This document shows, one piece after another, positions 1,757 through 21,404 of a stretch of 23,220 bases of DNA. This stretch comes from Candidatus Eiseniibacteriota bacterium (GTDB taxonomy: Bacteria > Arandabacterota > Arandabacteria > JAGLYR01). Position 1 is the stretch's first letter. Every line of letters starts with the position of its first letter. The position numbers and the translations under genes were made by a program. The DNA is taken from assembly GCA_023132135.1 (NCBI GenBank), contig JAGLYR010000211.1:1-23220 (forward strand), written 5' to 3'. The notes under the pieces were generated by a model. It did not search any database and had not been told where the DNA came from. It was given only the letters and a program-made list of their open reading frames with translations.

Positions 1757-3829
1757 TCACGAGGACGCCTTTTCCGGAGGCTCCGGAGGAGGCGCCTCCT
1801 CTGTGTCTGCCTCATCGGAGAACTTGGCATCCGCCTTCGAGACATGTTTTCTCGGTTCCCTGCGCGCCCTCACGGGTGGGAGTTCCCGTCCTTCGAGGAC
1901 CGCCTCGATTTCCTTGCGGTCCAGCACCTCGCGCTCCAGAAGAACCGCCGCGAGGCGGTGCAGGGTATCGATCTCGCTGCTGAGGATCCCGCGGGCTTGC
2001 TCCTCACAGGCGTTGATGATCGCCCGGACCTCTTCATCGATGGCGACGGCTGTTTTCTCGCTGTAATCCCGGTGCTGGGAGATTTCCCGGCCCAGGAAGA
2101 TCTGCTCTTCCTTCTGCGCATAGGATATCGGGCCCAAGTGTTCGCTCATGCCCCACTCGCACACCATACGCCGGGCCAGCTTGCTGGCTTTCTCGATGTC
2201 GTCGCTCGCACCCGTGGTCGGCTCTTCTCCAACCAGAATGTCGGCCACGCGCCCAGCGAGGAGGACCGCAATCCGATCCAGACAGTATTGCTTGGAGAGC
2301 TTGTACTTGTCCTTTTCCGGGATCTGGAGGGTGGAACCCAGAGACTGGCCCCTTGGGATGATAGTTACCTTGTGCAGCGGGTCGGCCGACGGCAGGCGTA
2401 CAGCGACCAGAGCATGACCGGCCTCATGGTAGGCAATACCCTTCCGTTCCTCGTCGGTCAGAATGAGGCTTCGCCGCTCGGGTCCCATCATGACCTTGTC
2501 CTTGGCATCCTCCAGTTCCTGCATCGTAACGCGTGTGCGGTCGCGCCGGGCTGCGAGCAATGCCGCCTCGTTGACCATGTTGGCCAGGTCGGCGCCGGAA
2601 AAACCGGGGGTACCCCGGGCGAGGATCTCGAGATCCACCTTCTTCCCCAGGGGAATCTTGCGGGAATGAACTCTGAGAATCCCCTCCCTCCCCTTCGCAT
2701 CCGGCATGTCCACTACAATCTGGCGGTCGAACCGGCCGGGCCGAAGCAGCGCCGGGTCCAGTACATCCGGGCGATTGGTGGCCGCCACGAGGATAACGCC
2801 CTCGTTGGACTCAAACCCGTCCATTTCCACCAGCAGCTGGTTCAGTGTCTGCTCGCGCTCGTCGTGGCCACCGCCCAGCCCGGCGCCCCGATGCCGGCCG
2901 ACGGCGTCGAGCTCGTCGATGAAGATGATACATGGAGCGCTCTTCTTGCCCTGTTCAAAGAGATCACGAACCCGGGAGGCTCCCACCCCGACGAACATCT
3001 CGACAAAGTCCGACCCGCTCATGCTGAAAAAGGGAACATCGGCTTCGCCGGCGACGGCTCGGGCCAGAAGAGTCTTGCCGGTCCCCGGCGCTCCCAGAAG
3101 GAGGGCGCCCTTGGGAATCTTTCCTCCAAGGCGCTGGAACTTCCTCGGATCCTTGAGGAAGTCGATGATCTCCCCGAGCTCCTCCTTGGCTTCCGTCGCG
3201 CCGGCCACGTCATCGAAGGTCACCCTGGGTTGGTTCCCAGTGAGGAGACGGGCCCGGCTCTTGCCAAAGGAGAAGGCCCGATTTCCCCCCGACTGCATCT
3301 GTCTCATGAAAAAGATCCAGATCCCCAGAAACACGATGAGGGGGATCCACGAGATCAGGGCCGTGATCCAGTTGGTCCCGGCGGGTTTGCCGCGGACCTC
3401 TGCTTTCGGGTTCTTCTCATAGATCTTGTCCGGCAGCTCGGGATCGGGCGCGGGAATCCAGAGACGGAACTTGGTAGTCTGGACCGTGGTCCCGTCGAGA
3501 TTGATGGGCGCCGGCTGGAGCAATTCACCGCGAATCTCCCGCTCATCCACGGTGACCTTCCGGATGTTGGATGCTTCCACCTGATCGCGGAACCAGGTGT
3601 AGGACACCTCCCGCTCGTCATGGTTGCGCCCGCTGTAGAGCTGGAAGGCGAACAGCGCCAACAGAACAATGATGACCCACAGCGAGAGGTTGCGCAGCGT
3701 TCGGCTGGAATCGCCCGACCCGGGTTTCGGGCGCGAGCGTTGCTTGTCGCCGGGCGGCGCGGTCGGACCGTTGTTCTGTTCCCCCTCTGGCGGGGAGTCA
3801 GGTGTAGACTGCTTGGGTTCCTCAGACAC
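1757..3829 (-). CDS. ftsH: ATP-dependent zinc metalloprotease FtsH
   Basis: FtsH is a membrane-bound hexameric protease that degrades misfolded membrane proteins and some regulators. Numbering from the chosen GTG start (690 residues): a Pro/Gly/charged N-terminal tail, TM1 at about 48-67, a periplasmic domain, TM2 at about 155-175, Walker A GAPGTGKT (246-253), Walker [13 protein letters not shown] (300-311), the SRH region ending in RPGRFDRQ, the zinc site HEAGH (468-472) and the third-ligand region around TTGASDD. The GTG at 3829 has AGAAGGA 8 nt upstream and overlaps the end of hpt by 8 bp. A TTG at 3847 is less likely. The long cytoplasmic N-terminal extension and the Pro/Glu-rich C-terminal tail are variable parts of the family. 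Confidence 0.96.
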
Positions 3830-18804: not shown

Positions 18805-18861
18805 GCCGGTACGGGATAGCCGGATCTCTGGAGATTGTCCCCAACACAACGAGGCGTCGTC

Positions 18862-20262
18862 TTGACCTCTTTCCTCGAACGCATCGGAGACTTCTTCCAC
18901 ACGGGAATGTGGAAGAGCGATACCCGCCAGCTCTCCCGCTGGGAAGCCGTGCTTCACGGCCAGGCCAGGCTGTGGTTCATGATCGGACAACGGTCGCAGG
19001 CCAACCAGTGTTTCACCCGCGCCTCGGCGCTTGCATTCACCTCGGCCTTTGCCATTGTCCCGGTGCTGGTGGTCGTCTTCTGGCTCTTTGGCGGGGTCCA
19101 GAGCTTCCAGGGTTACGCGCCGGTGTTTGCCGAGCGGATTGTCGAGTACATCACAATCGGCGTGCCGGGGGAGCGGGTTCCGGCGCCGGGCGCGGATACC
19201 GGTGAGTCCGTGGGCCCGGATCTTCCACTGGAGAGCATGGAAGCTAACATCCGGCAGATGCTGGAAGCCTTGGCAAGCGATGTTGTCGGCTCCCGCGCTC
19301 TCAACTCCGTGAGTGTCGCTCTCATTATCCTCATCACGGTTTCCCTGCTGTCCACCATCGAGATGGCCTTCAACGACATCTGGGGAATCAAGCGGGGGCG
19401 GAGTCTCATCTACAAGTCCAACCTGTACCTCGGGACGCTGGTGATGCTGATTATCCTGGCGGGGATCTCCTTTGGGCTCCGGGACAACCAGATTGTGGAG
19501 AAACTGCGTACGCTCCCCTACCTGGGCAGCGGGATCTCCATTCTCGGGTCGCAGCTGTTCAGGTTGCTGGCTTTCACATTCCTGTTCGTCTACATGCCCT
19601 ACACGCGGATTAGCTGGCGAGCCGGGTTGGCCGGAGGGGTTTTTGCCAGTGCGCTGGTGCAGGTTGTGGCTTGGGCCGGAATCGTTTTCAATACCCGCGT
19701 CGTGACTTGGGGCAACGTGTATGGACCCCTGGCCGGGATCCCGGTGACGCTGTTCGGTCTCTACATCATCTGGACTGTTATCCTTCTGGGAGCGGAGGTG
19801 ACCTACGCCATCCAGAACCTCCGGACCTACGCGCAGGAGCGCAGAGTGGGCGAACTGACGCAGGCCATCAAGGAGTGCCTGGCGCTCAAGATCTGCCTGG
19901 CCATGGCGGAAGCCTTTTCCCAGGGAGCGGAGCCTCTCACGGGCAGGGAAATCTCCGATCGGTTCGACATCCCACCCGGAGCAGTGAATGAGATTACGCA
20001 CCGGCTGGTGCTGGGTAGCATCCTTGTGGAGACCGAGGATGCCGAGGGGAAGCTGGTTCCGAGGCAAGATCTGCGGTCCATGGAGGTAAACCGGGTGGTC
20101 AGGATCCTGCGGAAGGGGGGCGACGCGCAGGATCTAGCGTGCGCGGGCCCTGCCAGCGCGCATTTGGACGAGGCAATCTCCGCTGCCGAGGAGACCATGG
20201 AAACCGCCTACGGAAACATGACTTTCGGGGATCTGCTTGCGGCGCAGGGGACTCAGGGCTAG
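18862..20262 (+). CDS. YihY/BrkB-family membrane protein with C-terminal winged-helix-like domain
   Basis: Members of this family (once called ribonuclease BN) are polytopic inner-membrane proteins of unsettled function. From the TTG at 18862 (466 residues): cytosolic N-terminus, then about six membrane helices near 50-78, 148-166, 190-207, 228-245, 254-278 and 294-315. The signature YGPLAGIPVTLFGLYIIWTVILLGAEVTYA is at about 287-316. A soluble region of 40-50 residues lies between helices 1 and 2. The C-terminal 150 residues include LTGREISDRFDIPPGAVNEITHRLVLGSILVE, a winged-helix-like segment known from long YihY proteins. The start has GAGG 7 nt upstream; a TTG at 18835 is the alternative. 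Confidence 0.88.
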   Translation: MTSFLERIGDFFHTGMWKSDTRQLSRWEAVLHGQARLWFMIGQRSQANQCFTRASALAFTSAFAIVPVLVVVFWLFGGVQSFQGYAPVFAERIVEYITIGVPGERVPAPGADTGESVGPDLPLESMEANIRQMLEALASDVVGSRALNSVSVALIILITVSLLSTIEMAFNDIWGIKRGRSLIYKSNLYLGTLVMLIILAGISFGLRDNQIVEKLRTLPYLGSGISILGSQLFRLLAFTFLFVYMPYTRISWRAGLAGGVFASALVQVVAWAGIVFNTRVVTWGNVYGPLAGIPVTLFGLYIIWTVILLGAEVTYAIQNLRTYAQERRVGELTQAIKECLALKICLAMAEAFSQGAEPLTGREISDRFDIPPGAVNEITHRLVLGSILVETEDAEGKLVPRQDLRSMEVNRVVRILRKGGDAQDLACAGPASAHLDEAISAAEETMETAYGNMTFGDLLAAQGTQG

Positions 20263-20287
20263 CCTGCGTTTCTCACCAGTTTTCGGC

Positions 20288-20316
20288 TTGACCACCGGGT
20301 CGTTTCGGAGTAGTCT
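20288..20316 (+). promoter_or_regulatory. Candidate promoter of tRNA-Asn
   Basis: TTGACC (20288-20293), a 17-bp spacer and TAGTCT (20311-20316), located 75 bp before the mature tRNA. It begins 25 bp after the YihY stop. Confidence 0.5.
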
Positions 20317-20335
20317 TTCGGCTGGAAATGCAAAG

Positions 20336-20362
20336 AGGAGAGAGGCGATTCTCCTCTCTCCT
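20336..20362. terminator. Hairpin in the tRNA-Asn leader or after the YihY gene
   Basis: AGGAGAGAGG (20336-20345) and CCTCTCTCCT (20353-20362) pair perfectly around a 7-nt loop. It lacks a T-run. If the upstream promoter is used, this hairpin is in the 5' leader of the tRNA transcript and may be a processing feature rather than a terminator. Confidence 0.4.
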
Positions 20363-20391
20363 TATCATCTCTCTGTAATCCGAAGAACTGC

Positions 20392-20466
20392 TCCTCGGTA
20401 GCTCAATGGTAGAGCATCCGGCTGTTAACCGGAGGGTTGTAGGTTCAAGTCCTACCCGGGGAGCCA
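20392..20466 (+). tRNA. tRNA-Asn (anticodon GUU), CCA encoded
   Basis: Cloverleaf with acceptor TCCTCGG/CCGGGGA (one G-T pair), D arm GCTC/GAGC, anticodon stem TCCGG/CCGGA with loop CTGTTAA, and T arm GTAGG/CCTAC with loop TTCAAGT. Discriminator G73 is followed by an encoded CCA (20464-20466). The other tRNA in the window does not encode CCA. Confidence 0.97.
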
Positions 20467-20506
20467 GAAAAGGGGCGCCACACTGGCGCCCCTTTTCTGG
20501 CTCCCC
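20458..20506 (+). terminator. 23-bp perfect palindrome overlapping the tRNA-Asn 3' end
   Basis: Arms 20458-20480 and 20484-20506 are exact reverse complements with a 3-nt loop (CAC). The left arm contains the last nine bases of the tRNA, including G73-CCA and most of the 3' acceptor strand. The right arm contains CCCCTTTTCT but no terminal T-run. It probably stops transcription, but its overlap with the mature tRNA is unusual. Confidence 0.8.
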
Positions 20507-20511
20507 AGAGT

Positions 20512-20610
20512 AAGAGAGAAGTAGACAATAGAAAATAGATCCCGGACAAAGGCATCATAGAAACCCTGCCCACTTCTCTCTTGCGGTCTATTTTCTATTG
20601 TCTATTTTCT
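20512..20610. repeat. Period-7 A/T-rich repeats on both sides of a short spacer
   Basis: On the left, AAGAGAGAAGT (20512-20522) is followed by AGACAATAGAAAATAGA (20523-20539). On the right, their exact reverse complements occur at 20572-20582 and 20587-20603, in swapped order relative to a simple inverted repeat. The right side reads TCTATTT, TCTATTG, TCTATTT, TCT with period 7 (20587-20610). The stop codon and last residues (EENRQ) of the four-helix-bundle gene lie inside the right array. Confidence 0.9.
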
Positions 20611-20978
20611 TCCGATGCTTTTGGTTTGCGCCCCACCGCTCGAACCAACCCCATGATCATCGCACAGATTTCATCCAGCTCGGCCCTCAGCTCCTGATAC
20701 ACATCCTTCTCGATCAGCTCCAGCCGCTGCGCAACGTCCAGAAGTGGTACACACTCAAACGCGCTCCCACGAGCAATCATGAAGAAGTGTTTCTTCTCCT
20801 TCTCATGCCACCTCCCATTCCCCTCGGCGATGTTGCACGAGATGCTGATCACCGCCCGCCTCAACTGATCCGAAATGGCGTACGTGCCTGACGGAAAATC
20901 GCCAGTCAGCCGGGCAATCTGCTCTGCAAGGCCAACCGCCCGCTTATACACATCCAGATCCTCAAACAAGAACGCCAT
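20595..20978 (-). CDS. Four-helix-bundle protein (S23/23S rRNA-intervening-sequence family)
   Basis: The protein (127 residues from the ATG at 20978) begins MAFLFEDLDVYKRAVGLAEQI, the typical S23 opening. It continues with GTYAISDQLRRAVISISCNIAEGNGR, the core motif of the family, and a helix pair near ARGSAFECVPLLDVAQRL. These small pentameric proteins are encoded inside 23S rRNA spacers in some bacteria and as stand-alone genes in many genomes; Avd of diversity-generating retroelements is related. Their general function is not established. GGAAGGA lies 6-7 nt upstream. No 23S rRNA or reverse transcriptase gene is in the window. Heptamer arrays flank the gene on both sides and one encodes its C-terminus. 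Confidence 0.9.
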   Translation of the reverse strand: MAFLFEDLDVYKRAVGLAEQIARLTGDFPSGTYAISDQLRRAVISISCNIAEGNGRWHEKEKKHFFMIARGSAFECVPLLDVAQRLELIEKDVYQELRAELDEICAMIMGLVRAVGRKPKASEENRQ

Positions 20979-20990
20979 GCTCTTTCCTTC

Positions 20991-21045
20991 CTCCCCCCTC
21001 CCCCCTCCCCCCGCCACCCGAGAACCGAAAGCCGAAAGCCGGAAT
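20991..21045. repeat. Two heptamer arrays upstream of the four-helix-bundle gene
   Basis: CTCCCCC is repeated three times without error (20991-21011). CCGAAAG is repeated twice and followed by CCGGAAT (21025-21045). Both have period 7 but unrelated units. On the minus strand the first array is a G-rich tract (three runs of G) that ends 12 bases before the start codon, just ahead of the ribosome site. Confidence 0.9.
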
Positions 21046-21404
21046 CACACCACGCCATACCCCCTACAAGAGCAACTCCCATGCCCGAATGTCGCAGGAA
21101 GGTCGGGAATAACCCGACGCGAGGTGCCGGAAGAGAGCCGCTGGGCAGGTTCACCCCGGAGCTGCCCGCAGACGGCAGATAGAGCGGTTACAGCGGGCAA
21201 CTCGCGCGACGTGTTTCGATGTTCGTTGCTCGTCGGATCGAAGCGAATCCCCTCTTGCCAATCAGATATGGACAGGTGGTGCCGGAAAGGTGCACGATAA
21301 GCTAACTACGTCCCGGAAAGCCGCTATATTCAGAACACTGAAAGTGACAATCCGTAGTTCTTGAAACCTTTGGATGGGAAATCTCGGCTAAGGAGGTGAC
21401 GTAG
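21046..21404. other. Gap without a recognised gene
   Basis: This 359-base stretch holds short open frames with no family resemblance. A TATATT at 21325-21330 could be a -10 box for the next gene, but no matching -35 is visible. The last bases hold the very strong ribosome site AAGGAGGTGA (21390-21399) of the DUF3795 gene. Nothing else was seen. Confidence 0.5.

Follow-up and report, generated by a model that had tools for sequence, protein, structure and literature searches.

The window, as we call the whole stretch of DNA that was analysed (23,220 nt of contig JAGLYR010000211.1 from Candidatus Eiseniibacteriota), raises the question why a small gene for a four-helix-bundle protein, situated downstream of a tRNA gene, should be framed by tandem arrays with a period of seven nucleotides. 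The original prediction was that the gene is part of a small cassette that inserts with its repeats, or that the repeats are generated by the same activity. The gene itself had been recognised correctly. Positions 20595–20978 of the minus strand encode a 127-residue protein of the S23 (23S rRNA-IVP) family (PF05635, 1.1e-30; TIGR02436, 6e-29), the PF05635 profile being matched with 106.4 bits against a cut-off of 33.8, over positions 1–105 of 106. Among solved structures, sequence similarity pointed to a single relative, the Xanthomonas campestris protein XCC0516 (PDB 2gsc chain A, 2.9e-14). To our knowledge, no function has been established for S23, which is a common bacterial family with a solved structure, and we know of no transposase-like activity in it.

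As predicted, TRF finds heptamer arrays on both sides of the gene. The array on the 3′ side (TCTATTT/TCTATTG, 20587–20610, period 7, 3.4 copies; arm A below) indeed supplies the end of the protein, since the stop codon TAG (20595–20597) and the preceding residues ENRQ lie within it. On the 5′ side, a CCTCCCC array (20990–21012, period 7, 3.3 copies, 100%), which reads as G-rich AGGGGGG on the coding strand, adjoins the start of S23 at the position that is usual for an upstream arm in other S23 loci. It is followed by a CCGAAAG array (21025–21041, 2.4 copies), the word of which is common to other hairpins of the same genome (L001, L004). The repeat scores of these three arrays (46, 41 and 34) are little above those at other spots in the window (up to 40), so that the window on its own is weak evidence. 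Furthermore, when the ORF was tested for enclosure by complementary terminal repeats, only the upstream arm was left: the downstream partner of the AGGGGGG array is absent, and its position is taken by another hairpin.

This hairpin had been regarded as the boundary of the S23 cassette itself, but it is a separate, S23-less element of a multicopy family. The description of its structure held up well. Arm A recurs in inverted form as arm A′ (20519–20539), which forms with 20587–20607 an inverted repeat of 21 nt that is 95% complementary, and arm B (ACTTCTCTCTT, 20572–20582) and arm B′ (AAGAGAGAAGT, 20512–20522) are exact reverse complements of each other; along the sequence the inverted arms follow one another as A B .. 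A′ B′, with the order swapped. With the conserved core TTTCTATGATGC (20552–20563, minus strand) they make up a unit of 104 nt (20506–20609, minus strand; order A, B, core, A′, B′) that overlaps the 3′ end and the stop codon of S23. The unit is dispersed in its own genome in about 18 longer copies and many fragments (78–94% identity, E down to 1e-33), some of them located at contig ends, and the core is present in 16 exact and 14 one-mismatch copies as compared to 1 for the reversed control. Copies near another S23 gene, on contig C301 (L003), have the same core and other arm words (AAATTAGA-like versus AAAATAGA-like), and the complementarity of A with A′ and of B with B′ is kept in each of the L003-type and window-type copies. 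In chimeric copies (L153, L156, L160, L171), another array substitutes for one side. No known RNA family in Rfam corresponds to the hairpin. The order A B A′ B′ might reflect an RNA pseudoknot, but the copies are too similar to one another, and have too many heptamers in common between their arms, for this to be more than a possibility. The overlap with S23 suggests that the hairpin reached the site later than the S23 element.

The tRNA end, which was thought to belong to the setting of the cassette, does not. Both the tRNA-Asn gene (20392–20466; the only feature scoring above the Rfam gathering threshold in 20250–21400) and its 23-bp terminator palindrome (20458–20506) are real, and both are unrelated to S23. 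A tRNA lies near two of the three S23 genes of the window's own genome, and within 600 nt of S23 in none of 80 other loci, which excludes an integrative cassette that uses tRNA sites. The palindrome is perfect and takes in the last 9 nt of the tRNA-Asn gene (GGGGAGCCA); owing to this overlap, folding of the terminator hairpin and folding of the acceptor stem would be in competition. Elsewhere in this genome (L001, ~2040–3315; G000:C249), tandem copies of about 300 nt, consisting of a tRNA-Glu fragment and a heptamer hairpin, adjoin another S23 gene. The gene neighbouring S23 in the window is kept in no sister genome. At 18835–20262, the window encodes a BrkB/YihY membrane protein that carries, as a C-terminal fusion, an Rrf2-like winged-helix domain (a weak match, 1e-4), and none of the seven sister genomes searched has a counterpart.

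The flanks of S23 genes in general were examined in 80 stand-alone loci, obtained by scanning GTDB with each species represented by one genome. A single S23 protein served as query, and the loci are its best matches and not a random sample. They come from Cyanobacteria, Chloroflexota, Planctomycetota, Acidobacteriota, Pseudomonadota, Bacteroidota, Spirochaetota, Patescibacteria, Archaea and others. At a looser threshold, an array of period 7 (sometimes 8) lies within 400 nt of S23 in 70 of the 80 loci and on both sides in 50; about 10 loci have no array at the threshold used. The strictly defined arrays within this distance number 77 for period 7 and 16 for period 8, against 0–3 for each other period except 14, which is twice 7, and period-7 arrays are 12-fold rarer at more than 1.5 kb from S23 than near it. 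When S23 genes are compared with other ORFs of the same loci, arrays are found on both sides in 38/72 versus 2/301 (Fisher P 2e-29), upstream in 47/72 versus 11/301 (P 1e-30) and downstream in 45/72 versus 20/301 (P 8e-24). Complementary array pairs accompany 27 (period 7) and 6 (period 8) of 72 S23 genes and none of 703 control places at periods 5 to 12, and inverted arrays at close spacing enclose either S23 or nothing. Several detection thresholds were used, and the main contrasts stand at every one. The association of S23 with such arrays is overwhelming across loci and far wider than the original prediction assumed. In random stretches, 9 period-7 arrays were found in 395 kb of S23-bearing genomes, as compared to none in 346 kb of S23-free genomes and none in 72 kb of sister genomes, a modest contrast in which 7 of the 9 arrays come from one genome. 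A general description of the link between S23 and heptamers was not found in open-access papers; an earlier account may exist elsewhere.

The properties of the arms are informative about how the arrays relate to the gene. After removal of duplicates, 129 non-identical elements were available for comparison, 79 of them with both arms. Unit length is equal between the arms in all 79 (69 at 7, 9 at 8 and 1 at 9 nt), and the consensus word is equal in 54, as compared to 3.4% between different elements, a level of agreement reached in none of 5000 permutations. Since the arms match in unit length and usually also in word, the S23 ORF sits in the loop of a heptamer stem. One Nostoc genome contains many words, a different one for each S23 copy. 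Word identity rises from 0.55 at less than 35% protein identity to 0.80 at 70–90%, and this rise holds across phyla too. The words are thus passed on with the S23 protein lineage, for which reason insertion of the gene with its repeats is the better fit of the two options that had been offered; the other option, generation of the repeats by the same activity, fits less well, even though copy number does change in place.

That the gene moves as a unit can be judged from orthologous sites. At one site in Mesorhizobium, between what we take from its sequence to be an acyl-CoA dehydrogenase gene and the gene that follows it, the arrangement (TAGGCAG)n-S23-(CTGCCTA)n is present in 27 of 119 species and about 90 are empty, where a genome scored as not filled may carry S23 elsewhere. 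The words are unchanged across 26 species, whereas n ranges from 2 to 14 and differs independently between the arms; an array length that is fixed, for example at five units to suit a pentamer, is thereby ruled out. In certain filled sites the array provides the stop codon of the upstream gene. In a tree built from the flanks, filled and empty states are intermingled, and supported branches account for at least three changes of state. Genomes with the element are also richer in TAGGCAG arrays at other places (median 19 versus 4.5, P 0.001). In Brevundimonas, where 4 of about 120 sites are filled, the element replaces about 230 nt of intergenic DNA instead of adding to it, and in Mesorhizobium the intergenic bases around the element also differ between filled and empty alleles. 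Recombination that exchanges alleles must therefore be involved, and homologous recombination of whole alleles must explain part of the distribution at these two best-studied sites.

Orthologous empty sites also exist in Anabaena, and two Nostoc genomes carry one element at different sites with different flanks (L284, L294). In a third Nostoc locus (L287), the S23 ORF is interrupted by a hairpin of about 155 nt without an ORF, and this hairpin is absent from the 97% identical copy L284. Neither this insertion nor the Mesorhizobium site shows a recognisable target-site duplication, and no partner enzyme for S23 elements was found. Mobility of the S23 element is supported by these comparisons, and hairpins that have arms of this kind but lack S23 spread too. 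The notion of a small bounded cassette delimited by its own repeats is thus upheld by the array association and by the existence, in Mesorhizobium, Brevundimonas and Anabaena, of orthologous sites that lack the element; the opposite finding, a gene fixed at the same place without arrays, was not made. The cargo is conserved: dN/dS of S23 is 0.08 over 26 Mesorhizobium species, as compared to 0.06 in the neighbouring gene, and an open frame of 120–122 codons is kept in 25 of the 26 genes. These values point to purifying selection and to a protein that is functional, whether the host or the element benefits, in contrast to the reductive evolution reported for S23p of Coxiella (PMC4990558).

The explanation that in our opinion best joins these observations, at a probability of roughly 60%, is that a widespread mobile element of very small size carries S23 genes as its cargo. 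It would be about 0.45 kb long, with an inverted pair of degenerate arrays of 7-nt (sometimes 8, rarely 9) units around the looped-out ORF, and it would be a stand-alone relative of the intervening sequence (IVS) of 23S rRNA. The ORF-less hairpins (about 100–250 nt) with the same kind of arms would be its non-autonomous relatives. In the window, S23 would have kept its G-rich upstream array, with the last codons and the stop supplied by the genome's own multicopy hairpin. Layout, arm matching within elements, orthologous presence and absence, occurrence at different sites, insertion of a hairpin in a gene and purifying selection are all supported by comparison of sequences. We further infer that S23, presumably a basic homopentamer (S23p in PDB 2gsc is cited as a pentamer in PMC4990558), recognises and binds the arms as DNA or folded RNA and thereby assists spread or protects the element, whereas strand synthesis and joining would be carried out by host replication and repair or by another enzyme in trans. 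Slippage would alter the unit number, copying across the hairpin would keep the two arms matched, and the G-rich upstream arm probably doubles as a ribosome binding site. If so, the arms of the elements are a candidate nucleic-acid substrate for the S23 family. The origin and mobility of the IVS have been at issue for decades, and S23 as cargo of an element bears on both; such elements could also explain why bacterial genomes contain heptamer repeats in excess.

Part of this evidence could also be produced by local mutation, if S23 genes are situated at sites prone to polymerase slippage, or give rise to such sites, and if slippage there makes arrays that template switching turns into inverted pairs, with no moving unit. 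The independent variation in unit number at the Mesorhizobium site is what slippage would give, and heptamers are ascribed to polymerase slippage in work cited in PMC4692102 and PMC4679880. This explanation is nevertheless quite improbable, as gene and both arrays are present or absent together, as words stay constant across species and follow the protein from site to site, as one Nostoc genome holds a separate word for each element, and as a hairpin was inserted in L287. We regard it as unlikely, too, that the element exists at the RNA level without autonomous mobility, its stem being cut from transcripts by RNase III, which would make it harmless in operons, and its spread being due to horizontal transfer and homologous recombination in the flanks. 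Excision by RNase III is known for the Coxiella IVS (PMC4990558), the upstream neighbour is co-directional with S23 in 53 cases and not in 13, and the alleles of Mesorhizobium and Brevundimonas are interspersed and linked to flank variants; however, true insertion is needed for one element at different sites in Nostoc and for the dispersed ORF-less hairpins, and in the window the neighbours of S23 run in the other direction. Finally, the arrays might be mere signals of the S23 gene, a ribosome binding site upstream and a terminator downstream, in agreement with upstream arrays whose coding strand is rich in G in 44 of 50 cases and which end directly before the start codon. This leaves the period, the matching of arm words, the ORF-less copies and the presence/absence alleles unexplained, and being already contradicted, it has hardly any chance of being correct. 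A role of the arrays as all-frame stop signals was rejected, since stops occur in all frames in only 16 of 50 upstream arrays.

The small mobile element that we prefer resembles several known systems. In the 23S rRNA IVS of Coxiella, Leptospira and others, inverted repeats likewise form a stem that has an S23p/IVP ORF in its loop; in Coxiella the terminal stem has a length of 28 bp, and tandem GACAGAT heptamers are found ahead of S23p (PMC4990558). Enclosure of this type, by complementary terminal repeats, was found in most of the other S23 loci. The differences are that stand-alone loci are intergenic, with none of the 80 in rRNA according to a scan for conserved rRNA/LSU motifs and the window gene likewise outside 23S rRNA, that their arms are open-ended heptamer arrays with element-specific words, and that ORF-less relatives are abundant. 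The STRR of cyanobacteria are heptanucleotide repeats as well. Other published heptamers, such as the GGGAATC arrays of Xanthomonas, where 70–75 close inverted pairs occur, and GGGGA(C/T)T of Nostoc (PMC4692102), or TAACTGA of Beggiatoaceae (PMC4679880), have the same 7-nt units, often in close inverted pairs. The link to S23 was never made in these two papers, one of which reports no general association of heptamer repeats with mobile elements, whereas here the arrays are the boundary arms of S23.

MITEs and REPINs/RAYT also are short inverted-repeat elements with non-autonomous copies dispersed between genes, but the S23 elements have no transposase, their ends are arrays of conserved unit length and variable word, and no target duplication was seen. 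A MITE or IS-derived element with constant terminal inverted repeats does not agree with words that differ per element even in one genome. The protein bAvd of diversity-generating retroelements has a related four-helix-bundle pentamer fold; in an unsystematic look, the reverse transcriptase and template/variable repeat of such retroelements were not noticed beside S23 genes.

A second cargo may exist. In S23-bearing genomes, GxxExxY genes (TIGR04256, PF13366; PD-(D/E)XK-like) have complementary arrays of period 8 in 6 of 23 and of period 9 in 4 of 23 cases, and never of period 7. In loci L323, L324, L327, L336, L338, L340, L345, L346 and L348 the arrays flank the gene near 1450–1900 in the S23-type layout with longer units, for example ACCACAAAGGCACAAAGACAC and CACTGAGAACACTGAGAA. 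With 7 or 8 nt for S23 and 8 or 9 nt for GxxExxY, unit length differs with the family of the cargo, and this favours the view that the encoded protein takes part in reading the arms; by analogy with S23, the unrelated GxxExxY family would be expected to act likewise with a different unit length. Tentatively, and with slightly less than an even chance of being right, one may envisage a new class of bacterial and archaeal mobile elements with inverted arrays, in which the encoded protein sets the unit length (7–8 nt for S23, 8–9 nt for GxxExxY) and the word drifts freely. If true, the protein would act as if it reads spacing and arm complementarity and no fixed sequence, and the class would unite the 23S IVS, the cyanobacterial STRR and the unexplained heptamer excess in bacteria.

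Some further observations concern arrays and S23-like genes in other settings. A longer four-helix-bundle relative with a weak PF05635 match (L004, G000:C249:4102–4314) has a GGCTTTCGGCTCTCGG array of period 7 directly upstream, and the array-framed layout may extend to its subfamily. In genome G015, S23-like genes occur many times, in divergent pairs that are a few hundred bases apart (C7:104028–104554, C2:122174–122711, C3:436717–437275). Many period-7 hairpins are dispersed among apparent pilin or prepilin-like genes in a member of the Phycisphaerae (L106). In L298 (457–778) and relatives from Anabaena, an array region of the AGGGAAC/AGGAAAT type beside S23 matches dozens of places per Anabaena-group genome.
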